Below are positions 1-55,501 of a stretch of DNA of 64,000 bases, piece after piece. The translations under genes were made by a program, and so were the position numbers. The notes beneath the pieces are model-generated. The model saw only the letters and a list, made by a program, of their open reading frames with translations, did not search any database and was not told the origin of the DNA. How positions within the stretch are numbered: the first letter of the stretch is position 1; each line of letters begins with the position of its first letter. Origin of the DNA: Aquila chrysaetos chrysaetos (Eukaryota; Chordata; Aves; Accipitriformes; Accipitridae); the NCBI RefSeq assembly GCF_900496995.4, contig NC_044019.1, positions 1,736,001 through 1,800,000 of the forward strand. The letters run 5' to 3'.

Positions 1-3000
1 GCGTGTCAGCTGAACTGCTCTGAGCATGGGCGCTGTGACTCCTTCACCAAGCGTTGCATCTGTGACCCCTTCTGGATGGAGAACTTCATCAGGGTGCAGA
101 TGGGGGACGGCGAAAGCAACTGTGGTACGTGCAACCTCCCTGGGATTGTTCATCTTCGGAAAGAAAGCAGTGTTTGAAACCCAGGGTAGGCAGAGTAACA
201 GGTACCTGCTTTCTCCCAGTATCTCTGACGTGATGCTCACGCAAGGAGATAGTCCCTGCCCTGGTCTCGCTACACGTACCTTCTAGGCAGGCGATATTTG
301 ATAGGGGAGCGACTCCTTTTCAGATCCTCTCAGTGAACACTCACAAAGAGTTGAGTCCATTCTTAGTGTATAAATCACACCTCTTTTCTGTCATGCCTCT
401 ACAGAGTCTTTCCTGCCACAGGAAAGCAAATTTTATAAATCAACACACATTGAAAAATGCTATTGTGCAGCGAGTCTGCATGCTGGATCTCAAGCCTCTG
501 GCTTCTGTAGGTGAGTTAGTGGTCCTGTCAGTGATGGATACTAGCCTCTAATTCTGCAAAGGGTCAGGCCTGCCTTTTTCTTCCCCAAGAATAGTCATCT
601 AAAGCGCACACTGTCAACTGTATGAGGTGCCAAAACGTCTTTATCTCTGGGGTGTTTTGCTTTCAGAGTGGAGTGTGCTGTATGTGATCATTGCATCTTT
701 CGTCATTGTGGTTGCCTTTGGAATCTTATCCTGGATGGTGATCTGCTGTTGCAAGAGGTGGGACTGAGGCCATAACCCCCACTGTATCAGTGCTTCAGAG
801 CCAAGTAGCTGCATTAGGAGGTGAAAGATTCAAACCCGTCATCCCAGCAGGTCATCTGCTTAGCCCTGGGATGTTAGTTTTTGTCACTTGGTGTTTCAAG
901 TGAAACATTGAAGTCCTAGAACTCTGGGTTTAGTTAAGAAGCAAGATTTGGATTAGCCTATAAATGTGCAACTAAAGCAATGTTTTTAATGTTTTGCTTT
1001 GTGATATGAACATAATCTGAAATAAGTACTCTAGCTTTGAAGATCAGAGTTGTTTTTTCTTCTGGCTTTTTTAGAAATGGACTGCCTCTTAATTCCTTTT
1101 CTTCCTCTTTAGACGAAAAGGAAAATCCAAAAGAAAAAGCAAATACAAGATTTTGGATGCAACGGATCAAGAAAGCCTGGAGTTAAAACCAAATCCCAAA
1201 GCAGGTAAAACATGAGAGGGAAGAGCTCAGCGTTTCCAGAATGCTGACTAAGAATACTCTTCCTCAGTGGACTTAAAATCACAGAGTGAAACAAACGTGG
1301 TGTTAGGCACTGACAGACGAGTCTCAGAAGATCTAAGAGCTTGTTTCAGATCTGTATACAGGGTATTTAGTCAAGTTATCTAACTGCTTTGGTTTAGAAG
1401 TTGGGAGTGAAACTGGCCTGGTCCTGATGTCTCCACTTAGTATCACAGAAGTAGTAAGTGGATGCGTGTAAGCTATGCAGAGACCGGTATGATCCAGGAA
1501 GCCCCAAACTGGGTCTTTACTATAATTTCTCTTGCTCTAAAGTTTTTTCCACCGGGTTCAGGTAGTTTGCTTCTTGCCAACATGCAATTCCTTGGCCATG
1601 CTCTACAGCAAAGCATGAATTCAGTGTCACTAAGCATTTCACTAAACTGATCGACTTTGGCTGGTAAGCAAAGGGGCACCTGAAAGCAACCTGAAAATAC
1701 TCGTGGACTGGAGAGCGCGATGTTTATTTCTGCCCCCCTGCTCTCCCACGCCATGTGATTTGTTCCTAAATTTATTCATTTTTGCCCTTGTGAGCATCAG
1801 GCTCTGAAAGTTTCACGCTTTAGCTCATAGTCTAATTTTTCCAGGAAGCAGATGCTTATCTTAGGAGGGAGACCCATGAAGTCTTCAGTGCTCTGTGTGG
1901 CTACAGGCCTGTTGGCCCATTCCAGAAAGGCAGTCGTTTGTCTTCAGTGTTCTTAGCCAGCATTTTCCTGCATTGCTGTCCTGGAGAGTGCTTGTCAGGT
2001 GATTTGGAAAGATCGTTGAGTTATTTCAGGCTGGAGCATTTTTGCTGCGATTGTATCTGATACCTGAACTGAGCTGTGCTCACCTGCTGACTGACCAGAA
2101 AGGAGGGAAATGTGGGAATGTATGTGCAAAGCACAGCCCCACCAAATGCCAGGGAGCACTTCAGCTGCTGAAATACATGTTTCAAATAAGAGTGTGCATC
2201 CTGGTTTTGTTTAGAGGAGGGGTTATTTTAACTGTGTGTGGAAAATAGTCCCTGATCCTTGTTTGCTAGTGGAAAATAACTGCTCATCCTAGTATTATCC
2301 CATTTAATGGTGTTCCAGCAAAGTGAACAGTGCCTAACAGCAGCATTGGAGGGCATTGCAGCAACAGAGCTGATCAGACAATTCCTCTGAGAACCCAGCC
2401 ATCCCAACTGCACAAATACAGATACCCTTGAAGAAAAACCGGGTGTGTTTTCCTCCCTCAGCACCCAACTCTGCTTTAATCTGACCATCTGTCACCTCGA
2501 GCAGAAGAGCCCCACTGTTAAAGAAAGGGTTCATTGTTCTGCAGTCTGTAGCAAATGTGCCTCAACCATTTGCTCTCTGGTAACTAAACTCATCTTGCTT
2601 CTTCTGAGGCTGGCTGCTGACTAAAGTCTTTTTCCCTGCTAGATATGTCCAGTGAGCATTCTGCTAACAGAGGAAATGTTGCATTTCTCCATTAAGGAAA
2701 AGCTAAATTTAAATATTTCCTTTGCTGACAATATCAGTAAATGTGTCTCTCCTGTCCTTGTGCATTAATCTAAATTCAGCCCGCTAATTTATCTCTCTTC
2801 CCTTGCAGGCAAGAGAAGCAGAGATGGGAGTAGGGAGGGTAGTAAGAACACGGCTATCTTCCCCCTCGCACCTGCATATTCTCTTTACTACAGCCGTTAG
2901 CCCTCAGAGAGCTTTCTAGGCAATGCTCTGAGCAAGGTCAGGGAGACAAAGCTCCCATGTATACTCACAGCCCCTTCTGGTAACATAATTTGCTTTCCTA

Positions 3001-3429
3001 CCTGTTCGTTTTGCTTTGCGCTACTTGAAGTGTCTGTGTGACCTCTGTCATGCCAGAGTATCTGAAACAGGATCACTTTGGCTTCAGCATTTGAAGGAAT
3101 AAGTGACAGACACAGGAAAGTCTGATGAGGCTGCCCCTTTGACATGATAGGAAAAGGAAACTTAAAGAGGGAATGGAGTAAGGTGAGGTGGTTGACCAGT
3201 ATTAAAAGTATTTTTAACCTGGGAATCTCTCTCCTCCAAAGGTGGCAGACAGAAAGCCCAGGTCCTCAACACTAGCCTGATGCACTCGGAGTCTGAACTG
3301 GACAGCGATGAAGCCATCTTCACGTGGCCTGACCGTGAAAAAGGGAAACTGCTCCGTAGCCAGAATGGCTCCTTGCGCAATGGACAAGTGATGCTCAAAC
3401 CCAAGAATCAGAGGGAGGAAATCCTATAG
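1..3429 (+). CDS. KIAA0319L: KIAA0319L C-terminal part (dyslexia-associated KIAA0319-like, AAV receptor), four last coding exons
   Basis: Single-pass type I membrane glycoprotein of the trans-Golgi/endosomal route; in mammals it is also the entry receptor for adeno-associated virus. The window starts inside an exon. Coding exons are 1-124, 667-757, 1113-1204 and 3242-3429, joined by GT-AG introns with matching phases (1, 2, 1) and ending at TAG 3427-3429, giving 164 residues. The first exon encodes a small cysteine-rich segment (CQLNCSEHGRC, then CICDPFW). The second encodes EWSVLYVIIASFVIVV and the rest of the transmembrane helix, ending at a CCCKR stop-transfer sequence. The third gives a very basic juxtamembrane stretch and YKIL, which fits a YxxL endocytic motif. 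The last carries SELDSDEAIFTWPDREKGK and ends in REEIL. Upstream PKD domains lie outside the window. Identity rests on recognising the conserved tail; I regard it as secure versus the paralogue KIAA0319. Confidence 0.93.
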
Positions 3430-4955
3430 CTCCCCTCAGGTGGCCTTTTGCTGGAGCTCAGTGGGAAAGGCCACTCCCGTCCCTATCCTACAAAGGCCTT
3501 TGGAGGCCAGTTTGATTAGGACAACGCTGCTAACTCGTTTCACAGAAAATAACTTTGGTTTTGTGGGTTTCTTTTCATTCAGTTAAAACTGGTTGTACTT
3601 GAATTTGAACTTCAAGGGAAATCAAAGGGAGGAGAAGGCAACTGTGAACCCCAGGCGAAGCATCAGAAGAGGACAGAGCTGGCATCTGGAGAGCGGCAGG
3701 ACAGAACCACTTGAAGCAACTGTGAATGTGCAGGACCCTCCTAGCCCACCTCAGACTGCAGTGGAGGAAACACCTATGGACCTGCAGCTCACTTGCCTTG
3801 GGAGCTCCTCAGAGAAGGAAGGTCAAGGCTATGCTTTGAGCTGTGCTCTGAGCTCCCTTCAGGCTCCAGTAGCCTACCACGGGCTACTTTTGCTGTCGAA
3901 CAGCTTTCTTCTCTTTTACTCCCACCTTCCCTAATGGTTTAAGCACTATTTTAATTTAGACTTGTCCTCTCACATGCACTTGGCTGCTTTTGGAGTGTAG
4001 AGGAGGGGGAATCTAAACACTGTGGTCACACTCCATCAGCTTGCAGGTAGGAGAGGGTTTTGTAGCTATTCTAAATTACTGTCAGGCTCTTCTCCCTGGG
4101 AGTGTTGATGACATGGTGCCTGTTCAGATGTGAAAAGCTGACCTGTCTGTGGTAATTGGCTGGGCTAGGAGACCCCCTCCTGCAGCAAGCTCTTCTGCTG
4201 GGTACCAGAGCCGGGAGGGGACACCCACCTTTGGTACCTGTGTCTAATGTCTGGCTTAATTCCAAAGCTGTGAGATGTTGTTCAGTGGCCCCAGCACCTT
4301 CTGTTGGTCGCCAAGCCGTCCGTGAGTCTGGACATTAACCATATCTCAGTTATGGAATGCTATATACTGTGGGTTTGTTTTTTTTTTTTTTTCCCTAAAA
4401 TTTGCACAAACTGGGCAAACAGGGGTTGATACCTTCAGTTCCCAGCAGCTGGCTGCTCCCTCTGGCTGGCAGCTTAGTGGCCTCTTGTTACGGCTGAAGA
4501 GCCCTGCCTGCTCCTAACGCAGTGCGAAGTACACACTTGGTGTTCTTTAGTCGGTGGAAAAGGGAACTCTCGGTACCCGAGGGCATCACATGGTGAGTGC
4601 CAGCAGCAAGCGGCCGTGTGTCTCTGCTGCCTGGGCTCAGGGAGGCAGGTGTGTGGTGGTCCTTTCCCATACCTGCTTCTTTACCTCACTTGTGCTGCTT
4701 TCATAAATTGCACCCCTGTCCTTGGGCAGAAATCAGCCGCTTGCTGGCATGAAGGATGCCACTGCTCCTCTGTGGATGGGTGGGCAGTTTATTGCCTTTC
4801 TTGGTGTTTAATTTAAAAACTGGAAACTTGTTTCATTGGCTTTTTTTTTGAGCTATGAAAGCCAAAAGGCTTTAACTTCCTTGGTTGTATTTATATTGCT
4901 GCACTACTGATTTGTGTTGAGCTAGATGAAGATTAAACACTATTGAATGCGAGGG
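3430..4955 (+). other. KIAA0319L: KIAA0319L 3' UTR (probable extent)
   Basis: No further reading frame continues after the TAG. The first convincing polyadenylation hexamer downstream is ATTAAA at 4932-4937, followed within 15 bases by a perfect 9-bp inverted repeat (4949-4968). The end is inferred. Later candidates are ATTAAA near 5742 and AATAAA at 6719-6724, so a longer 3' UTR is possible. Confidence 0.5.
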
Positions 4956-7900
4956 AATGTTCCCTCGCTGAATGTAGTCATGGCTGCTGCTAAGTTTATT
5001 TTTCTGGGCAATCAGCTGTCTTCCTCAGGCACCAGCACTGGAGCCTGCTGCTCTCCTGAGTACTGAGGCATTACCCTCATGCCCTCCCGACTCCGTGGCA
5101 GGCACGGGGCTTGCCTCTTGCTTGCCTGCGTCACAGCACAGGCCACCCTCCGGCTTGTCTGTCTCGTGCACAGCCGCTGTTCCGAGCCAGGCTTCCCCTT
5201 CCCGGGCTGCTCCTGCACCCGCTCTCCCAACGGCTCCTTCCCTCCAAGCCGGCCTGGGACCACACACTGGGACGGGAAGGGCTGACAGCAGGATGTTCCC
5301 CGTGTTGTGCCTCAAAGGGGCAGAGCCCGGTGCTGGCTGCAGCTGCTGTTGGGAGCTGTATGATGGCCGGACACTTAACTCTTGGGTGACGCCACCCTCT
5401 GATGCGTTTCCCTTCGTTTGGATGTAAGATGAGCAGACTACAAGAAAATGAGGTTTTGAAGCTGCAGGGATGGATCAGACGTGGTCGTGGGACTGTGCCT
5501 GAAAGCGGTTTGTGCTGTTAGAGGAGAGCTGTTGGACTCTCGCTGATTCTGGTCCCTGGGACTTGTGCTTTTTGAGCCTCTTGCTCCTGCCTGTCCCGGG
5601 GAAGTCTCCCTTGCAGTAGATAGGGGCTGGGTGCGGTGGTTCAGCCATCGGGCGTTCATTGCTGCAGAGATCGGCACCCCTCTCAGGAGATGCAGAGCGT
5701 GCTTTCAGGCAAGCCTGGCTTCTTGTTACGGAAGAGGGAATTAAAATCTGTGCAGCTGTTACCCCACCCTTGTTTAGCTGGGGTAATTTTATCCTTACAT
5801 TTCACTGAGGGTTAGCAAACATTTGGGTTGGGGTGCTTTAGTCAGCTGGCAGCAGTGCCTGCGAAGGCTGGGTTTTGCGGTGGGCTGTGGCGTTCCCTCT
5901 GCGCCGAGCGGCTCGGTTAGGATGGCTCGTTAGTCATTTGTCATCGCTGAGTGCAGGTTTGTGACAGAGCATAGCGCAAGCTCCCGTTAGACTTCTGGCT
6001 CCCATTAGTATTCCCTGGCTGTGCAGCGTTCTTCCTCGCTCCACGTGTTAACCCTTGGTGCCGCTGAGCCCTCGCAGGGCTGCAAGAAACGGGGACACGC
6101 AGCACCCGGACCCCGGCCTCATGGGAGCACGAGGGCCTGTGAAGCTGACGGAGGCGAGGAGACCCTCCCAGGCAGTAACTCTTGGCCCGGCGTAGGAACC
6201 CCCCGACCCAGACTGTCTGCTTTAGTGCACCATTGATGCAGAGCTCTCCCAAGGTGTGTGCACATAGAGCAAACGCGTTATTTTGAAATCCCTTGCCACT
6301 GTTTCCTCCTCCCCCGTGGCATCACTAATATCGCTGCTGGTTTGTTGCCCGAGCACCATGAGCGGGGCTGACCTTGCTCGGGAAGGTTTCTGCATTGCTA
6401 TGCATTATGATTTCACAATTAGAGACACTGGCTACAAGTTACCCATGTGTGGAAGTTAAAAGCTGAGACATCTGTTATATGAACCATCAGCTTCACTTGA
6501 TTTTGTTTTCTTCTTTAACATTCAAACACTGGTTAAGATGTTTGAGGCAAATGTTGCATTCTAGTTTTAAAATAGTTTGCTCTTAAATCTTTTCTTCGTT
6601 CTTCTCTGTAGCGGGGGCTGCCCAACCTGTCTGAACTTTGGTTTAACAATGTTTGTTGATTGCAGTGTTACTTGGATCAAGACTAAAAGTAATTTTTTTA
6701 AATGAAATGTTTCTTGCAAATAAACAGGGAAGATGTTTTGCTGCTGCTCAGCTTGCTTCTTTCTCCAGTTTCAGCTGTGGGACAGTTCCTCCTACGACTA
6801 CTGTGCTCTTTGTGTAAGAATTGGAAGTCCTCTCTCGTTCCTCTCACCCAGGGCCTGGCAGCGGGGTCTCAGCGGGTGCTGCTGGACAAGGAACTGCCTT
6901 TGCTCCAGCCACTGTAGTGTGCGGTGGGGCTCTACTGCCTGCGCAGCTAACGGGGCTGCCAAGAGCTTGCTTGACAGACAGCCAAGTCCGCTCCTTGCTC
7001 AGCGACCGGTGCAGCAACCTCCATGAGATGCCAAGCCTCATGCTACAGGCCCTGTGCTTGTCTTTTGACCCCTGGTTTGTTTGTCTGCCCCTGCTTTAGA
7101 ACAACCATAATTAGCTTCTGCTACTTGAAGTCAACTTTCAGCCTAATCCCCCAAGGGCTCTTGTGCCTCGTCTTCTGCTGACCAGGTACGGAGTTCCCTG
7201 ACCTGCCCAGGGCTGTTCCCTGACCGCTGAGGCAGGAGCTGACTGTTGATTTCACTGGAAAGCAAAATAGCAGCAGTGTTGGGGCTCAAGCTTCACCCAC
7301 GCCTGGGATAACTGTACCTCCTAATGCAGCAGAGGAACACTTATTAATTAGTGGAGTCCTTGAAGGAGATTAAGAAGGCTGCCCAGCTGTCACTGTGTCT
7401 GGCTGCTGTAGGGAACACACTTTAGCACCACGGCAGCCAGAAGGGACCTGATGGCACCACGGGACATGGATTTTTCAGAGAGGGGAGGAGACTCACCTTC
7501 AGAGCTGCCCTTCTGTCCATTCGCATCTCACGTGGTCTATGGGTTGTGCTGGAGCCCTTGGAGTTCATGCTGCTCAATGTCACCTAAGGACACGAGAAGC
7601 CAAATCTGCTGGGCTCCCCAGCCTACTGCCTCTGCCCACAAGCATGGCAGCAGCTGCCTTCAAAATAAAGCCACCTCAACCCTTTCTGGGCATCAAACAG
7701 CTGCTGATGCTGCAGCACACCTCTCCCTGGCATCAGGGCAGGTGTAGCCCCACACTGTCCCCCAACAGAAACCTGGCTGGGAGCAGCCCTTGTCTCTGGA
7801 AATCTGAAGCAGCAGAAGGCTCCTGCCTGCTGCCCCTTCACCATCGGTGCTCAGCTGGGTCCCTTCCCTTTGTGTTCATGCTCTCTGGTTTGTGTCACCC

Positions 7901-8580
7901 TCCTCTGCTATTTCTTTTTTTCCTTCTCGCTCACTGTCCCTGCGGGAAGCTCTCTGAAGGGCTGCCCTTTCCATTTGCTGTCTGCTCAGCATCACTTAAC
8001 ATTTGCTGGCTCCTTGCAGAGGTGCGGGAGGAAACCCAGCAAGTGCTTACTCGGGGCGAAGGACAGAGGTGGTGGCCATGGCTGAGGGACCCCCATGTCC
8101 CCCAGCTGTGGCTCTCGAGGCTCTGCTTCTGGGGGGGGAAAGCTTGCACCAGCCCCAGGGCAGGGTGGGGAGAGAAGAGCCAGGATTTCCCACTGCCCTG
8201 AGGGCAAACAGCTGCTCCTGCCTACAGCTGGGTCACCTCCTCGGGGGGGGATCTGGGTCTGGTCTGGACCCTCAGAGCAACTCCAGGATGGTTATTTGAG
8301 AGAAATCCCAGAGAAACGGATTTGGTTGCAGGAATGTCACAGCTTGAGAAACTGAGGCAGGGGGATGTGCGTGGCAGGAGGTCCCTGCCTGGCTGAGGGA
8401 GGGCAGGGACGGGCAGAGCAGCGGTGATGGCAGCTTAAGGACTCTGCCTACCACTGCCGTGGCTGTCCCGGCATTTCAGTGGCTCGGCAGCCCGGGGAAG
8501 CCCCGGGGCCCCTCGGGGAAGGGGGTGCGTGGATGCGGCCACTGGCACTGCGGTGCTGCAGCCGGCTGAGGCTGAGACCG
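4956..8580. other. Intergenic stretch, no gene seen
   Basis: Mixed-composition DNA with no exon-like segment that I can tie to a protein family, no tRNA-like boxes and no recognisable recent mobile element. Open frames here are short and overlap in several frames. AATAAA at 6719-6724 on the plus strand could end a longer KIAA0319L transcript or an unannotated RNA. Confidence 0.5.
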
Positions 8581-8585
8581 CGACC

Positions 8586-8636
8586 GAGCCAGGGAGCTCA
8601 GTGTAATTGCAAATACGACACCGAGCTCCCTGGCTC
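8586..8636. repeat. Near-perfect short hairpin (inverted repeat)
   Basis: Arms 8586-8604 and 8618-8636 pair over 14 bp (GAGCCAGGGAGCTC with its complement), then one A/C mismatch, then 4 bp, around a 13-nt loop. The arms are shorter than those of a usual microRNA precursor and I do not recognise a known mature sequence, so this is listed as a structural repeat only. Confidence 0.6.
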
Positions 8637-9554
8637 TGCTTCTCCCTCCTTAAGCAGCGCCTGTGGCTAGGAGGAGTTAAAAAAGAAAAAGGCTCTTGCT
8701 GGAGCCTTGGGAGAGAGCACGTTTTTTTCTCTCTGCACATGTTCTCACCCCTCTGCTTGCGCTGTCCTTGCTCCGACCATGTGGATTTGGCACTGCTCCC
8801 CAGTGCCTTCCTGTCATTAGGATTCCCTGAATTGCTGCTGCTTTACCTCTTCCAGCTGGGCTCTCCCCAGCCTCCGTGGCCGCACTGACAGGAGCTCCCA
8901 CACCTCGCCTGGGGCCCCTGCAGCCGCAGGAGTGACACGGTCACGGTAACGATATGTGCTCGTTAAGCATCCCTGTGATGATGGGTGTGGGCAGCCCCTG
9001 CAAGCAAAGGGCACTGCAGGGATGCTGGTGGCTCCTGGGGACACTGTGGCACTGCTGGCACCCCAGCATGGCCCCTGACCGCGGGAGCTGCCCCCGGGGC
9101 CGTGCCAGGGCGGCAGAGCCGGGGCAGGAGCGTTCGGTCGCTGCCCTGACGCCGGGATTTGCAGGGGCTCAGCTGGAGGAGCGACCCTGTGCTGGCTGTG
9201 TCCCAGTGCGAACTGGTCGCCCTGCCACAGCCCACCCTGCTCCCCACCAAAGGCACCCTGCACATCCCTCCTGGCTGGGCACAGACCCAGCGATTGTCCC
9301 TGGGTCACCGCTGGCCCAGTGAGTTAGTTATAGGCATTTTGGGGAGAGCACGGCTGGCTCGGGACGGTGGCTTTGCACAGCATCCCTGCTGCAGGCACCT
9401 CCTCCCCTCTCCCATCGCTTGTCCTGCAGAAGCAGGGCCCCGGCGGCATCGGGGCGCGATGCGGGTGCTGTGGTGCAGGCCCATGGGTACCATCACCCTC
9501 CGTCCATCCGTCCGTCCGTGCAGGGCCCCGTGCGCCGAGTGAGTCCGTCTTTCC

Positions 9555-9568
9555 ATTGTTCAAACAAT
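9555..9568. promoter_or_regulatory. Palindromic SOX-type motif pair
   Basis: ATTGTT at 9555-9560 and AACAAT at 9563-9568 form an inverted pair two bases apart, the geometry of a SOX HMG-box dimer site. It lies just before a cluster of MEF2/CArG-like boxes. Assignment is by motif only. Confidence 0.3.
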
Positions 9569-9620
9569 CTCTTTTCCACACTCGGTGCCAAAGCCTCCCC
9601 GCTTGCTCCCGCACGCGCCA

Positions 9621-9735
9621 GTATATTTAGCTGCCTCTAAGCCTCTACCTTTCCTTATATAGGAGAGGCCAAACGAATTTCGCACTCTCATTATTAATAG
9701 CCTGAGAGGAGCTCTTAGGAGGCTGCCAAAAATAG
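9621..9735. promoter_or_regulatory. MEF2/CArG-like cluster, candidate muscle enhancer or promoter
   Basis: Four A/T-rich boxes occur in 115 bp of otherwise GC-rich DNA. GTATATTTAG at 9621-9630 is MEF2-like on the minus strand. CCTTATATAGG at 9653-9663 is CArG-like with one deviation. TTATTAATAG at 9691-9700 is a perfect match to YTAWWWWTAR. CCAAAAATAG at 9726-9735 is CArG-like with one mismatch. MEF2 and SRF are the established activators of miR-1/miR-133 loci, and this block sits about 4.5 kb upstream of mir-1b on the same strand. The functional link is inference. Confidence 0.4.
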
Positions 9736-12700
9736 CAGGCAAACAGAGCGCACCCGGGGTGGGGAGGGCGTCGTGGCAGGCAGGGAGCCGCCGGGACCGC
9801 CGCGGGAGGGACGCCGCGCTGCTTTTTCTGGCTTTTCCCCTTGGGAACCACAATAAGGTGTCTCCCGGCATTCTGCCCCCGCCACAGCCCCGAGCGGGGG
9901 GTCCCCCTCGCCCCGCCAGCTCTCCGCAGGCAGAGGTAGGACGGGCAGGAGCCCGGGGGCGGCGGGGTCCCAGGGTGGGCAGAGCAGCCCCGTACCCCTG
10001 GGGTTTGCTGCTCCGGACGCTAGAACAGCCGCCCCGTGGGTGTCGGGGACACCCAGACCCGGGTGGCCTGGGACAGCCCGGGGATCCCCATCCCCGTGGG
10101 GTTCCCCCCCCCGGCCTAGGGGAGCCCCTGTGGCTGCAGCGGCGACAGGTTTCACCCTCCCGGTCGCCCCACAGACTCCGCTTCGCCCTCCGAGCTGCCC
10201 CGGGCTGCTGCTGGGCCCAGTAACGCATGTCGGCTCTCCCCACGGCGTTGCTCTGGGACCCCCACCGGGCACCCACGGGACGCGGGGCAGGCGGCGGAGG
10301 GCAGAGGTGGCTGGCCGCGTGCCGGTGGCAGCTCTCATCCAGGAGGGAGAGGGTTTCTTCAGCAGAGATCACCCACGCAGCATCCCTGGAGCTGGGCACA
10401 CCGCGAGCCGTGTGCCGGGACACCGAGCCCGGGATGGGATGTACGAGGAGGGGGCCGCGGGGTCCCCAGCGAGCGGAGGGTCTTCACCTGTGCCCGGAGA
10501 CGTCCGCATCCCAGTCAGAGTCTGCCTTAAATCCCTCCCTCCCTCCCTCCCTGGCGAGGAACTTCTCCCGCTGAACTGGAGGATGCTGCAAGCTCCTGCG
10601 GACGAGCCGGAGGAGTCCTGTGGCAAAGTCAAGGCGAGCGGGGAAGCGGCGTGCTCGTGCCGGGTGTCACCGCAGCCCGCTGCCGCCAACCAAGCTCGCA
10701 CCCGGCCGGTGTCACCTCCAAGACCGTAAGTGGCCATGCGGGACGAGAGGTTCGGGGTCTGCGGGAGGCAGCGGGGCTTTCCCCGCTGCCGGCGTTTAAC
10801 CTTCAGCGAGCCCGGCTGGTGCCGAGCCCCGCTCGGGCTGGGGATGCTGCCGCCGCTCTCGCAGCCCCACGTTTGGCTCCTGGCAGCGGGTCGGCGTGGG
10901 CAGGGAGGGGGCAGACCCAGGGCTGGGGGTCACCGCAGCCCCCCACCGCTTTTGGCCAGCCCTGGTGGAGGCGGAGGAGCGGGGGCAGCAGCAAACTCTC
11001 TGTGGGGTTGCGGGGGGGGGGGGGCAATGGGGTACCCCCGGCAGGTCCCAGTTGCAGTGGGGTGGTGGGTGCTGGGTGCTTGGGTCCACGGGCAGTGCAG
11101 CGGGGCAGAGCCCGGCCCATCTGCCTGCGGGTGACCCCCTGCAACGGGGCTGGTCACCCCCTCCCCGGGGAGCCGGGGTGCCCTCGGCCGCGCAAAGAGG
11201 GGATGCCCCACGCCGGTGGGATGGGGCGGGAAGGGAAGCCCAACTCCCGGGCATCTCGGCGTCGTATTTTGGACACGCATGGGGGGAAGCACTGACCACC
11301 GCGGCCGGGTGCACCAGGGCTCCTCGGGCCACATGCCCGCAGCCCCGAAACGGGCAATGCCCACAGGCGAAGGGGCGGCAGGACGGGGGCCGGGGTGCTC
11401 CCCCAGGCACCCTCTGCCAGCGCTCTCCTTGCACCCACCTCCCTCCTCCTCACTGGGCCTCTTGGTATTTTTTTAAGCCGCTCAGTGGCTGGAGTGGCTG
11501 CTGCAGTGGGTTTGCCAGGGATGGATGAGCCGGGGGGGAGCCGGCTGGGGGGGGCAGCCCTGAATAGTAAAACTTGGAAAGGCCCCTGCGAGGCAGCGAC
11601 TGCAGAGCACGGCCGGGCACGCAGTGCTGGGGGGGAGCAGGGAAAAAAGACGCTTCCTTTTATAGACAGGCTGGGGCTGTTGGGTGCTGTGCAAGTGTGT
11701 GGGTGCCACCACAGCCAGCCCCAGCAGCCCCCCCCCCCGGCTCCTCCGCCTCTCCGCTGCAAGGCTGTTTGCCCCCGGTGCCCACAAGCCACCCTGCCTG
11801 GAGCAGGGAGCTGCTCTCGGGGCAGGAGGTGGACCAGGGGGCTGCCCAGGTTGGGGGCTCCCAGCCGGTCTCGGGGTACGGAGGAGCCATACGAGAGGGG
11901 CTGCCCCGGGGCAGAGCTCCCTGGAAGGCTTCGGCTGGGGCGACAAGGGCAGTGCTGGGGCCGGGGAGGGCTGGGGGCTGCCTGCGGCAGTGGGGGCACC
12001 CTCAGGGCTGCAGAGGGGCTTTGCGCTGATGACCTGGAGCATCTGGGCGCAGGGACGGGCCACGGGGCAGGGAAGGGGTAAGGCGGGGTGGTGGGAGCGA
12101 GCAGGGGTGGCCTGGGCTAGGGTTGGGGGAGATGAGGCACCCCGGCTGCGGCGAGCATCCTGCGGCGCTGGGGGAGGCCCTCCAAGGTCACTGGGAGAGC
12201 CCGGCCGAGGGCTGCGGGGACCGTGCCGTGGGATGGGGCTGTGTGGGCCCCCCCCCCAGCCTGGGCTACTCCTGGTACCGCAGTCCTGGGAGGCTGCCCA
12301 AGGTCAGCCGAGGCGGCTGGAGCTGAACTGGGCTGGGATGCGAGAGCCCCGACCCTGTGCCCTGGCTCTGGGGGTTCAGGGTGGGCACAGCCGCCGGCTT
12401 TCAGCTCCCGCTGCGCCCCGACAGCCCCGCCGGTGTCTGGGGTCCCCTGCACCCCTACAGCAAAACTGTGCGGCAGCGACCCACTGTGCTGCAGGGCCAG
12501 CGGAGCCTGAAGGGTTAAGCGGGTGCATCTCTGCAACCTCTGGCCTCGGGACACCCGCTCAGTCTGCTTTTTGGGGGGGAACGGGGGTGCTGGTCCAGCC
12601 AGACATGCTCTGCCCTACCACTACTGCTGGGCTGGGGACTTAGATCCCGGGAGCTGTGTCTCTGGGGTCCCCAGCACCGGGTCCCTGGGGACCGGCCATG

Positions 12701-14165
12701 CGGGAGGCCCTGGGGTGCTGGTGGAGCATCCTGGGGGGGACTGTGGCCATGCTGGCAGCAGCGCTGCACCCCGCAGCGATGGCTGGTGGCTTGGGGGGGG
12801 GGGGCCACCGAGCAGCGTCTCCGCTGCCTGGGGGTGCCACGAGCGGGGCCGGTGCGGTGAGCGTGTACTTGGCACCCACCGGCTCCTTGCAGAGAGCTGC
12901 AGCGCGTGTGGCCACAGCTCCCGGCGCTGAGTCACGGCCGCGCCGGGCCTGGCCAGCGCCGCGTCCCTCCTGCCCATGGCCGGGCCCCCCCGTGCACCCC
13001 TCGCCCCCCAATCCTGGGAGGGGGGCAGGACCGGGACCCCCGCGAGGGCTCCCTGCACCCGCCATCGCACCGCTCCAGCCGCGAATTTAGGGGTAGGAAG
13101 GTCACTGGGGTCAAGGCACGGATGGGCTGCGGTGACACTCGCCCCCCTCAGTCGCCCTGCCCTGGCCACGCTGTGCCGGGGCTGGGGAGTCCCCCCGCCA
13201 CCCTGTTATGGTCTCAAGCCCCTGAGATGTCAGCTGAACCCCCCCTCCCCTGGACAAAGGCGTCTCTGGCCTCCCCTGCCCAGATCTGTGGCGTGGGGAG
13301 GGCGTGCGGGGCGCCCGGACCCCCAGGTCCTTCTCCCAGCCTTGCAAACGAGCCAGGCAGGACGAGCGGGGGTGTGGGAGGTGGGTGTCGTCCCCCCCAG
13401 CGCTGGCCACAGCTGCACCGAGCTGCAACCACTGCTCTGGCACACGGGCTGCAGCAAGGGAGGGGGACAGGGGGGTGTGGGGTGCAGGGGGATCCCGGGG
13501 GGGTGCTGGGGTGCTGCAGGGTCTTGGGGCAGCGTGGGGGGTGTGTGGGGGGTGCAGCTGGTGCATCCTAAACCAGCGCAGCAGCAACAGTGGGGACCTC
13601 TGCCAAGAGCCAGGGCCAACGGAGGAGCCCCTGGCTCCGGGCGCGGGCACGCACCTCCGCCATCCGAGCTGGCCCGTGCGGGCTCACGGGACACGGCACT
13701 TGGCCGTGGCCCCGTCTCCTTGGAGGTGCAGCCCCCCCCGGCACCCCACGGCCCAAACTGCCGAGCCTCGGACGCATCCTGAGGTGTCCCACCGCCCGCG
13801 AAGGGCACCCACCGGCCAAAATACGGGGCGGCGGGTGCATTACCAGCCTGAGCACCCTGGGGCCGGTGCAGAGACTACGGGTCCCAGGCACGCGCGTTGG
13901 CTGCGGCACTGTCTAGCTCTCCAAACACGCGGGAACCTCGCTCTGGCACGGCCGCGGGCACTACGGGACCGTACGGGCAGTGCCACCGCCGGGATGCACC
14001 CGGGACCGGGTGCAGGCAGAGGCCGGGTCCGGGGGTGGGCAGGAGGTGCTCCCCACAGCCCCTGCCCAGCCTCGGGCTTCACCGCGGCCACCGACTCCTT
14101 CCAGGTTCCCACCCTGTGGGAACGCAGCCCCCCGTGCCCAGCCCCACGCCACCCGCCTCTCCCTC
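9736..14165. other. GC-rich, CpG-dense non-coding stretch upstream of mir-1b
   Basis: Very high GC with long G runs (for example around 11018-11033 and 12795-12805), a (CCCT)5 run at 10533-10552, and a CArG-like CCTTTTATAG at 11656-11665. No segment resembles a conserved protein, and stop codons are rare in all six frames because of base composition. It may contain the primary transcript or first exon(s) of the mir-1b/mir-133c host RNA, but no exon can be fixed from sequence alone. Confidence 0.5.
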
Positions 14166-14243
14166 CCAACCCTACATACTTCTTCATATGCCCATATGGA
14201 GTCGGCCGGCGTTATGGAATGTTAAGAAGTATGTATTTTTGGG
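14166..14243 (+). ncRNA. mir-1b: mir-1b precursor hairpin
   Basis: The 3' arm carries TGGAATGTTAAGAAGTATG plus TA (14215-14235). It has the miR-1/206 seed GGAAUG and differs from classical miR-1 by one A-to-U change at position 9. It equals the chicken miR-1b mature sequence as I remember it. The 5' arm (14173-14196) pairs with it over 12 bp next to the base, then again through CCATA/TATGG near a GC-rich loop. miR-1 family microRNAs are made in skeletal and cardiac muscle, where they repress non-muscle and proliferative transcripts. Mir-133c follows on the same strand 80 nt later, so the two are almost certainly processed from one primary transcript. Confidence 0.93.
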
Positions 14244-14308
14244 CTGGGACCCCCACGCCGGGACCCACCAGCACTGGCCCAGGCGGCGCCTCTGGAGAAA
14301 CGGTGCGT

Positions 14309-14385
14309 CCCTGGGGCTGGTAAAAAGGAACCAGATCAACTTGCAACTGGATTTGGTCCCCTTCAACCAGCTGCAGCGGCGCATG
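14309..14385 (+). ncRNA. mir-133c: mir-133c precursor hairpin
   Basis: The 3' arm at 14352-14373 begins TTTGGTCCCCTTCAACCAGC and continues TG, identical to mature miR-133a-3p. The 5' arm at 14316-14336 (GCTGGTAAAAAGGAACCAGA) is the expected partially paired passenger strand. The terminal loop is TCAACTTGCAACTGG-like. miR-133 acts with miR-1 in muscle differentiation. The start-to-start distance to mir-1b is only about 143 nt, much tighter than the kilobase spacing of the mammalian miR-1/133a and miR-206/133b pairs. The name 133c follows the chicken cluster and is from memory. Confidence 0.93.
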
Positions 14386-14991: not shown

Positions 14992-15462
14992 CCCGGGGCC
15001 CCTGCTAACAGCGGCAGGCAGCACTGCCCTCTTCGTCGGTGGCAGACAGACAGGTTGGTAGTGCAAGGTGCCGGGGTCCCACGATGGGGGTTTGGGGTGC
15101 TGGGATCCCACGATGGGGGTTTGGGGACAGCACCCCTTTTCCAAGGCGGGGGGGGACAAAAGCAGGGGGGGCTGCTCAACCCGCTGGGCTGGCAGAGTGG
15201 CTAGGGAGCCCTGGGCTGGGAAAGAAACACAGGGTCTGGTGGGTCTCTGCTGTTGTGGGGTGGCTGGGGGCTCTTGCGGGCAGGATGGGGTGGGAGGGGG
15301 GTGGCTGCGGACACCCGGGCAGGAGAACAAGACCCCACTGGCCCTGCTCACCACCTGCACCACTCTAAGAAGAAACTTTTGTTCTTGCTCCCTGAAGGAC
15401 CAGGCTCAGACTGGACCCAGCACACCTCTTGCTCCGGCAGCTGCCCCCCAGGCCAGCCCACC

Positions 15463-16855
15463 ATGGGTAAGCTCATGGGGTCAGGGGCACGGGCCCCGCA
15501 GCGGGACAGCGTGGGGGACACGGGGCACCGGCCCCTGGGTGCACAGCAAACCTCCCTTTGCTTGTGAGCGAAGGCACAGGGGGGCTCAGGGCTCTCGTGG
15601 GACGGGGCCAGGGCTGGCCACGGGCATCAGGGCTGTGCCGGCAAGGACTCGCTTCCCCGGCATTTTGGAGAGGATGCAGCCACTGTCCCGGTGGTGTGAG
15701 GTGCCGGGATGCTCCCGGCACGGGGCACATGCTGCTCCAGTGGGCAGGAGGGGGCCTGGGGGTGCGGGCAGGGGATGGAGGAGCCCCTTGCCGTGCTGCC
15801 CAGAGCGAGGGCAGCAGCTCGCCTTCGCTTTCAGCCCTGCCGCCTGACCGCCCTCGATCTCTCCTTTGTTACAGGTTTTGTTGGCTCTGCCATCGGGGCG
15901 ACCGCAGGGATCGGTAAGGCACTGGTGGGCACAGGGATGGCTGACACCACGTGGAAATAAATCACTTTCCCAGGGCTTCATACTGCTGCTTTGCACACAC
16001 AGACCCCTCTCGGGGGGTGCCGCCCCCTCCCCAAAAAGCTGCGTCTTGGCCTGTCCCAGGAAGCCCGAGTGCAGGACCCCATCGATGCCCCAGCTAGGGA
16101 GGTCTGGCCCCAGGACCCTGCACCAGCCGCTCTGCTCCCGGCTGTCCCAGGCGAGCTGGAGCTCTGCCTCCACACACCCCCCGTTTCGGGGCAGGAGGAC
16201 ACGCGTGGCTGAGGAGCGACCCAGGGCTGAGGGTTTTGCAGCCTGCGTGCCTGCAGGAGTGTCACCGCCGCTGCTCTCCGATGCAGGACTCTCCGTGGTT
16301 GTGGTGCCGGCAGCCCTGTACGCTCTGGGCTTCACCAAAGCAGGAATTACAGTCGGATCCGTGGCCGCCAGAATGATGTCTCTGGCTGCCAGGGCCAATG
16401 GCGGGGGGGTGGCCGCCGAGAGCCTGGTGGCCATAGCGCAGTCGCTCGGTGAGTGCTCGCAGTGGGGTGCCCGTGGGGTCACCACGGGGGGCCCCGTGTT
16501 TTGGCCTCCCTGGGCAGTACCAGCAGCGTGGCGAGAACCTGGGGTGGTCGCGGGAGCGGGGACCCCCCCCGCCGGGATCCCACCTGCTCTGGGGTGGCCC
16601 CGCTGGCTGTGCTGGCCTGGCGGCAGGGAGGTGAGGTCTGGGGGGGGGCTGCTCCTCCTCGGGGTGCTCCCCCAGGCTAATGGGGCACAGTGGGGGCCCC
16701 ATGCTGGGGCTGGGGTTGGGTCTGGGCGGGGGGGGGGGGCTCGGGCTGATTTCTCCTCCTCTTCCTCAGGGGCAGCAGGAGTCCCCACAGCCGTGAAGGT
16801 TGCCCTGTTAGCCATCGGGGCGGCCATCGGGCTTGCTGTGACAGCCCTGCTGTGA
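15463..16855 (+). CDS. ISG12/IFI27-family protein, copy 1 (96 aa)
   Basis: Small hydrophobic interferon-inducible membrane protein of the IFI6/IFI27 (ISG12) family, whose members sit in mitochondria or ER and modulate apoptosis and antiviral state. Coding exons are 15463-15466, 15875-15913, 16287-16448 and 16770-16855. All have GT-AG borders, every intron splits a Gly codon, and the total is 291 nt. The start ATG sits in a perfect Kozak context (CCACCATGG), with only four coding bases in its exon. The protein begins MGFVGSAIGATAGIG. The 162-nt exon holds the family core: a hydrophobic helix with ALGFTKAGI, then AARMMS and ANGGG. It ends in a glycine/alanine-rich helix LLAIGAAIGLAVTALL with no hydrophilic tail. 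An ISRE/GAS/CRE block lies 0.5 kb upstream. The second copy begins about 0.5 kb after its stop. Orthology (chicken ISG12-2, IFI6 or IFI27L2) is not resolved here, so no symbol is given. Confidence 0.88.
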
Positions 16856-16962
16856 CCCCCCCGGATCTCCACCGGGACCCTCACTGATGTCTGCCCTGAC
16901 ACTCCCCCCGCCCCCGCTGCGACCCCCTGCATCTCTCCCCTCCCCGCTGTCCCTGACCCCCA

Positions 16963-16968
16963 AATAAA
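16963..16968 (+). terminator. Polyadenylation signal of ISG12-like copy 1
   Basis: AATAAA about 110 bp after the TGA at 16853-16855. Only about 20-60 bp separate it from the GC-box promoter of the next gene, so the two genes are packed almost end to end. Confidence 0.8.
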
Positions 16969-16995
16969 GACTCCCCAAGGCAGATCTCCTCCTCC

Positions 16996-17111
16996 TCCTC
17001 CGGGTCGTGATGCACCGGGCGGGGGCGGCCCCGGGGCGGGGACGGGGCGGGACGGGGCGGCCCCAGCTCCGGCTTCAGCTCCGGTACCGGTCCGGGTCGG
17101 CGGGCAGGGAG
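16996..17111 (+). promoter_or_regulatory. GC-box CpG promoter and probable first exon of ISG12-like copy 2
   Basis: Repeated GGGGCGGGG/GGGACGGGG boxes (Sp1/KLF type) in a CpG-dense segment, followed by a splice-donor-like GGGAG|GTAGGC at 17111/17112. No ISRE core (GAAANNGAAAC) or GAS palindrome is visible between 16990 and 17353, in contrast to copy 1. A non-coding exon 1 here is inferred. Confidence 0.5.
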
Positions 17112-17353
17112 GTAGGCACGGTGGCCACGGGGGGGGGGGGGGTGCCCCCGGGGTTCCCCCCTTCTCCCCTCTCCCCTCGGCCCGGGAGCAGCGGGGCCGC
17201 TCCCGTCGCTTGGCCGCCTCCCGGGGAGGGGGGGGGGGGGCTGAAACCGGGGCCGGGGGGGGGGGTTGCGGGCTGGGGGAGCTGCTGCCGGCCCCGCCGG
17301 AGGGAAGGTTTCCTGCCTGCCCGCCCTCCTGCCTGCCTTTTTCTTTCTTAGCG

Positions 17354-18570
17354 ATGGAAAACACGGTCAAAAGAGCAGCCGTGGGAGCCGCTGTGGGAGT
17401 AGGTGAGGGTCTGGCGTTGGGTGAGCAGCGCTCGGGTTCGCTGCCCGGTCCCATTCCCAGGCTGGTAGTGGGGGACCTGGCCGGGCTGGGGGGGGGCTGC
17501 GAGTGCCGGGGAGACTTCGGGTGCTGCTGCGAGGGAGGGGGCAGCGCTGGAAATCTGTCTGCATCCACTGCTGCGGCCCTGGAAATCTGTCTGTCTGCAG
17601 CCCTGGAAATCTGTCTGCACCCACTGCTGCGGCCCTGGAAATCTGTCTGCATCCACCGCTGCGGCCCTGCATGCCTCGCCTCGCCTCTCCTCTCCTCCCC
17701 GAGGATGGGGTGTTCCCATCCCTGCACCCCACTGCCCTTGCTCCCCACTCTGACACGTCTGTCCTTTCTGGGAGGCCGGATCCGGCGCACTGGTGGCAGG
17801 GGGGATGTGGGTCGCAGAGACCACCCTAACACCCCAGTGTCCTGCCTGCAGGAGTGGCACTCGTTGGCATCCCGGCGGGCATCTGGGCGCTGGGGTTTAC
17901 GGGAACTGGCATCGCCGCTGGGTCCATGGCTGCCAAGATGATGTCAGCGGCTGCCATTGCCAACAACGGAGGAGTGGCTGCCGGCAGCATGGTGTCGGTG
18001 CTGCAGTCCGTCGGTGAGCGGGGAGGGCAGGGGAGCTGAGCTGCGCTGGGTCCATCCCCGGAGGGTTGCACAGGGTTATACACTCGGCTTGCTGTAGGGC
18101 CAAACCAGCCCTTTAACCCATCGTTGGTCTGAATCACCCCAAACACCCTAAATCCACGATGTGGTAGGAAGAGTCAGGACTCGCTGGGGTAGGGCACCAA
18201 GGCTGGGGACATCAGGGGAACGTGCAGGTGGGCGTCTGCTCTTCTGGCAAGAACAACGCCTGCATTCGTCGGCAGTGCTGGCCGGAGCCAGAAAGGGACA
18301 GCAGAAAGGGGCTGGCTGTGCTCGGGGAGCAGAGCCCGCTCCCCGGCACACTCAGGAGAGGTCCTTGGCTACCTCTGCCCGGTGCTCAGTCCCCTCAGCA
18401 GGCAGCACCGATGCTCCCGGGGCATCAGGCCTCTTTCTGTCTTTGCAGGGGCTGCAGGTTTCTCTCTTGGTTCCAAAATTGGGCTGACGACCACCCTGGG
18501 GCCGCTCGGTGCTGCAGCTGGTGCCAAGCTGTTCAAGGGGAAGACAACTCCAGGTGACAAACGCAAGTGA
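17354..18570 (+). CDS. ISG12/IFI27-family protein, copy 2 (110 aa)
   Basis: Second member of the interferon-inducible ISG12/IFI6 family. Coding exons are 17354-17402, 17852-18013 and 18449-18570, totalling 333 nt with TGA at 18568-18570. The middle exon is again exactly 162 nt with the same phases as in copy 1, so the two genes are tandem duplicates. The N-terminus [17 protein letters not shown] differs from copy 1 and is encoded in one exon. The core has [34 protein letters not shown] and LQSVGAAG. Unlike copy 1 it ends in a basic hydrophilic tail ([14 protein letters not shown]). The glycine/alanine-rich helices predict membrane association, probably mitochondrial or ER. Assigned by family pattern; the one-to-one mammalian orthologue is not determined. 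Confidence 0.9.
17547..17669. repeat. 32-bp minisatellite in intron of ISG12-like copy 2
   Basis: Four copies of a unit beginning CTGGAAATCTGTCTGCAYCC and ending in CTGCGGCC start at 17547, 17579, 17603 and 17635. The second copy is shortened to 24 bp. Differences between copies are few, so expansion is recent. Confidence 0.85.

Positions 18571-26100: not shown

Positions 26101-55501
<29,401 letters not shown>

Follow-up and report, generated by a model that had tools for sequence, protein, structure and literature searches.

A compact mir-1b/mir-133c pair in Aquila chrysaetos as an apparent fourth copy of the miR-1/miR-133 muscle microRNA cluster

The stretch of DNA described here, a window of 64,000 nucleotides (nt) from Aquila chrysaetos chrysaetos (contig NC_044019.1, referred to below as C16), carries two closely spaced microRNA hairpins, mir-1b and mir-133c, on its plus strand. 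The pair is almost certainly the orthologue of chicken gga-mir-1b/gga-mir-133c, which has been published already and is not new, and the cluster is very probably a fourth copy (ohnologue) from the early vertebrate genome duplications, as judged from the gene families that it shares as neighbours with other miR-1/133 clusters. Because the pair is published, the value of the locus is mainly one of annotation, and it provides a clear example of an apparent fourth genome-duplication copy of a central muscle microRNA cluster. What the present analysis adds is the unpaired position within the stem of mir-1b, together with evidence from neighbouring genes for the fourth cluster.

A search of the whole window on both strands with Rfam covariance models, using the curated gathering cut-offs, returned exactly two matches at or above the gathering score, one for mir-1 and one for mir-133, both on the plus strand. 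The mir-1b precursor at 14165-14243 matches RF00103 with 60.6 bits against a cut-off of 45.6 (E 2.9e-10), and the mir-133c precursor at 14308-14379 matches RF00446 with 68.9 bits against a cut-off of 55.5 (E 7.7e-14). Mature sequences of miR-1, miR-1b and miR-133a were compared with the window as queries. The mature miR-1b-3p at 14215-14236 has no mismatch to miR-1b and one to miR-1, an A to U change at position 9, and its seed GGAAUGU (mature positions 2-8, at 14216-14222) together with the precursor score places it in the mir-1 family. The mature arm of the second hairpin at 14352-14373, UUUGGUCCCCUUCAACCAGCUG, has no mismatch to miR-133a over 22 nt and, with its precursor above the gathering score, belongs to the mir-133 family. 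The next best sites in the window have five mismatches for miR-1 and seven for miR-133. Relative to miR-1b, miR-1 departs at 1 of the 22 positions and miR-206 at 5. The earlier note on this DNA, which had described two plus-strand hairpins with a position-9 variant of miR-1 and an exact miR-133, the latter unchanged while miR-1b had diverged at one base, is thus borne out by both the Rfam matches and the mature comparison.

Each hairpin was also folded and compared with 200 shuffles. The mir-1b hairpin folds at -29.9 kcal/mol (z -4.15, none of 200 shuffles as good) and the mir-133c hairpin at -30.9 kcal/mol (z -3.77, one of 200), and the whole 231 nt region, whose folding the earlier note had proposed as a check, gave a z of -3.43 with 0/200 shuffles as good. 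The minus strands of the two hairpins fold comparably well (z -3.33 and -4.11), so folding is uninformative on strand, and the plus-strand assignment comes from the matches to the family models and to the mature sequences. Antisense Rfam scores of the mir-133 and mir-1 hairpins, some of them above the cut-off, were not counted as separate genes. In the pair table, the 5p arm of mir-1b at 14173-14194 pairs with the mature arm, and C14185 stands unpaired opposite U14223. Both of the further mir-1/206 copies seen in the genome have T and A in these columns. The difference at mature position 9 thus comes with one on the opposite arm, which leaves this pair open in mir-1b.

In chicken, the mir-1b-mir-133c cluster lies at chr23:4663912-4663975 and 4664051-4664129, with starts 139 nt apart (PMC2777939, published in 2009), in agreement with the earlier statement that the pair was known from that species. 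The families are the same by name and stand in the same order, and the starts are 143 nt apart on one strand here by the Rfam models, a spacing that fits the mir-1b/mir-133c orthologue group, although the types of boundary compared differ. The chicken pair is on chr23, whereas the Aquila pair is on a contig of 30.6 Mb. Chicken chr23 is far smaller than 30.6 Mb. The position of a chicken chr23 locus on this contig may reflect a chromosome fusion in the line of this bird.

Similar names have been used in other animals, including miR-1b and miR-133c in turtle (PMC7061903), miR-1b in anole (PMC4858913) and miR-1b-5p in turkey satellite cells (PMC10701595), all of these being names and not sequences. 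The pig microRNAs called "miR-1b" and "miR-133c" have other sequences (PMC2644714), so shared names are no proof of orthology. Among the literature matches listed there was no monotreme (platypus) study of the miR-1b/miR-133c pair, and no paper naming the flanking genes with miR-133 was titled on this locus.

The earlier note had looked to small-RNA reads from bird muscle as a check. This is answered in part by printed miR-1b reads from chicken lung (10 infected, 63 uninfected) and trachea (66 infected, 11 uninfected), tissues that are not pure muscle (PMC2777939). Trachea counts rose from 441 to 11,423 reads for miR-1a-2 and from 11 to 66 for miR-1b, which means that the two changed out of step, in libraries of different sizes (PMC2777939). 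As the mature miR-133c is identical to miR-133a over 22 bases, miR-133c reads are indistinguishable from those of miR-133a, and bird "miR-133c" assays at the mature level are unreadable as activity of this locus. One chicken muscle study assays miR-133c-3p (PMC7324647), and we infer that its primer also fits miR-133a.

Within the Aquila cluster, the gap is 64 nt between the Rfam model ends and 78 nt between the paired arm ends (14236 to 14315), so the earlier figure of about 80 nt was a fair one. The genome scan, in which the window is C16:1736001-1800000, covered the 1.23 Gb assembly in 144 contigs, and because only the best candidates were scored, its locus counts are lower bounds. It placed mir-133 at no fewer than four places (C3, C4, C15 and C16) and mir-1/206 at no fewer than three (C3 with an exact miR-1, C15 with an exact miR-206, and C16) by Rfam. 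The C3 and C15 pairs resemble the C16 pair in having the same two families on a single strand, mir-1/206 lying upstream of mir-133, but they are 12.8 kb and 3.9 kb apart, respectively, against 64 nt on C16. The kilobase spacing that the earlier note gave for the mammalian miR-1/206-miR-133 pairs is therefore found in both of the other readable pairs of this genome.

The evidence for a fourth copy comes from three gene families, TF_AP-2, KCNQ and GATA, which were picked beforehand on the basis of human paralogous regions and were the families scanned across the genome. TF_AP-2 gave 19 matches at four sites. The C16 site is 73 kb away from the cluster there, the C15 site is 0.70 Mb from miR-206/133b, the C3 site is 3.3 Mb from its pair, and the fourth is on C18. 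KCNQ gave 17 matches, including those at C16:2.62 Mb, 0.87 Mb from the cluster on that contig, and at C3:2.63 Mb, 1.0 Mb from the C3 cluster. GATA gave 19 matches, with two-finger genes near the clusters on C3 (0.11 Mb), C4 (0.14 Mb) and C15 (0.31 Mb). Over the four mir-133 loci, TF_AP-2 is thus a neighbour at three (0.07-3.3 Mb), KCNQ at two (within ~1 Mb) and GATA at three (within 0.32 Mb), and of these families TF_AP-2 and KCNQ, not GATA, are found near the C16 cluster, as a fourth copy from these duplications (2R) would share them. It is the co-occurrence of TF_AP-2, KCNQ and GATA genes with the clusters, as a set of duplicated chromosome segments, that leads to this reading. The text of an older survey counts three copies for vertebrates, and its table has up to four paralogous copies of the cluster in any genome (PMC1388199). 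A naming scheme for Mir-1/Mir-133 numbers linked copies alike by subgenome, from P1 to P4, without naming this locus in the part available (PMC8789304). On C15, the two-finger GATA gene and the miR-206/133b pair are located at 3.83 Mb and 4.15 Mb.

Several observations weigh against the reading of the C16 pair as an expressed ohnologue. One of the four TF_AP-2 sites, on C18, is without mir-133, and KCNQ-family matches on C2, C17, C4:9.3 Mb and C16:13.0 Mb do not lie near any cluster. The genome scan found no GATA match in the neighbourhood of the C16 cluster, two-finger GATA genes on C5 and C20 are not accompanied by a cluster, and single GATA matches elsewhere, including distant ones on C3 and C4, also stand without one. 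Neighbour sharing as counted here is plain co-location. No mir-1 partner was seen for the mir-133 on C4, and as the stretch read there contains N letters, nothing follows from this. With regard to expression, the printed miR-1b read counts are from chicken and not from Aquila. The cluster table of PMC2777939 has the pair detected in trachea but marks it as undetected in lung, despite the miR-1b lung reads in other tables of that paper, and in chicken skeletal muscle a single miR-133c read was reported, in one of two libraries (PMC3107184).

If the pair were instead a recent duplicate or a retro-copied miR-1/133 cluster in decay, lower family scores and an opened stem would be in keeping with it, and the C16 copies do score below those on C3 (60.6 against 76.0 bits for mir-1 and 68.9 against 87.6 for mir-133), with C14185 and U14223 unpaired in place of the T and A of the two other copies seen. 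However, the C16 precursors are only 69-81% (mir-133) and 70-74% (mir-1/206) identical to the other copies in the genome, yet the mature 3p sequences are kept, chicken has the same pair at nearly equal spacing, and neighbouring gene families are common to this and other clusters. A recent origin is accordingly very improbable, and the cluster would be an old ohnologue rather than a recent copy. The earlier note had also suggested that dosage and target choice may differ within a single transcript. At position 9, miR-1b truly differs in sequence from this genome's miR-1 and miR-206, but the seed at positions 2-8 is the same as in miR-1. Position 9 lies outside the microRNA seed (positions 2-8). 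A different target set for miR-1b is therefore not expected, and we consider a change of target choice improbable. Since the miR-1 seed is retained in miR-1b-3p and miR-133 has not changed, both would contribute dose for the muscle target sets on which miR-1/206 and miR-133a act.

In the proposed mechanism, one primary RNA would carry both hairpins, with Drosha cutting at both and Dicer acting afterwards, and the pair is probably made from such a primary transcript of its own. Separate transcripts for the two hairpins would have to fit a second promoter into the 64 nt between them, which leaves little room, and read-through from an upstream plus-strand gene would suit the position of the cluster, which is on the same strand as the pieces of the left flanking gene and downstream of them. 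Against these explanations, the observed-to-expected CpG ratio is raised upstream of the cluster, at 0.66-0.77 over 9501-11000 (3.2-4.7 kb upstream) and 0.69 over 13501-14000, and these stretches, judged by composition only, are a possible start of the primary transcript. We regard separate transcripts or read-through as unlikely next to a single dedicated transcript. A compact miR-1/miR-133 primary transcript is also known from Ciona (Kusakabe et al. 2013, as cited in PMC6589888), which, compared by description only, resembles the arrangement proposed for the Aquila pair in that both microRNAs come from one compact primary transcript. It is conceivable, if rather doubtful, that the compact spacing goes back to the chordate ancestor, as the sea squirt shows it, and survived at the fourth copy alone while the others expanded. 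In that case a living vertebrate would show, at this locus, miR-1/133 as the original bicistronic unit.

Two protein-coding genes that converge on the cluster appear to flank it. On the right side, at 26101-55099 of the minus strand, Pfam matches and open frames outline a gene with MYM-type zinc fingers and QRICH1 and DUF3504 domains, which we take to be ZMYM4. It has a PF06467 match within 46207-46761, and among the four 3' open frames scanned, PF12012 was found in two and PF25561 in two, one of the PF25561 matches being below the cut-off. Its stop codon is at 26101-26103, and an open frame at 54491-55099, with no Pfam match, presumably corresponds to its N-terminal exon, which it resembles. 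To the left, on the plus strand at 1-764, open frames give an EGF-like piece and a membrane-spanning-like piece, likely late exons of a gene that we assume to be KIAA0319L, at its end. The EGF_2 match of 20.7 bits is below the 22.1 cut-off, the piece at 603-764 has no Pfam match, and a search of solved relatives with the first left open piece gave weak EGF matches only. The setting between KIAA0319L and ZMYM4 given in the earlier note therefore holds on the ZMYM4 side by its domains, with the exact name presumed, whereas the KIAA0319L side is mainly presumptive, accompanied by the sub-cut-off EGF match and the membrane-like segment.

The cluster itself lies in GC-rich DNA that extends from about 8 kb to 19 kb. 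Two long open frames outside the cluster were checked with Pfam, at 15586-17943 (minus strand, 785 amino acids) and 7452-8201 (plus strand, 249 amino acids), and as neither had a match, both were taken as non-coding. Scans for tRNA genes (bacterial code) and tandem repeats found nothing at the cluster, the nearest array starting at 15067, and a short tandem array with units of about 20-56 bases is present downstream of the cluster in the GC-rich stretch, at 17541-17669. Among the patterns for muscle transcription factors tried over 9-19 kb, the raw count, from which we draw no conclusion, was one MEF2-like site, two CArG-like sites and seven CAGCTG sites, one of the seven falling inside the mature miR-133 itself.
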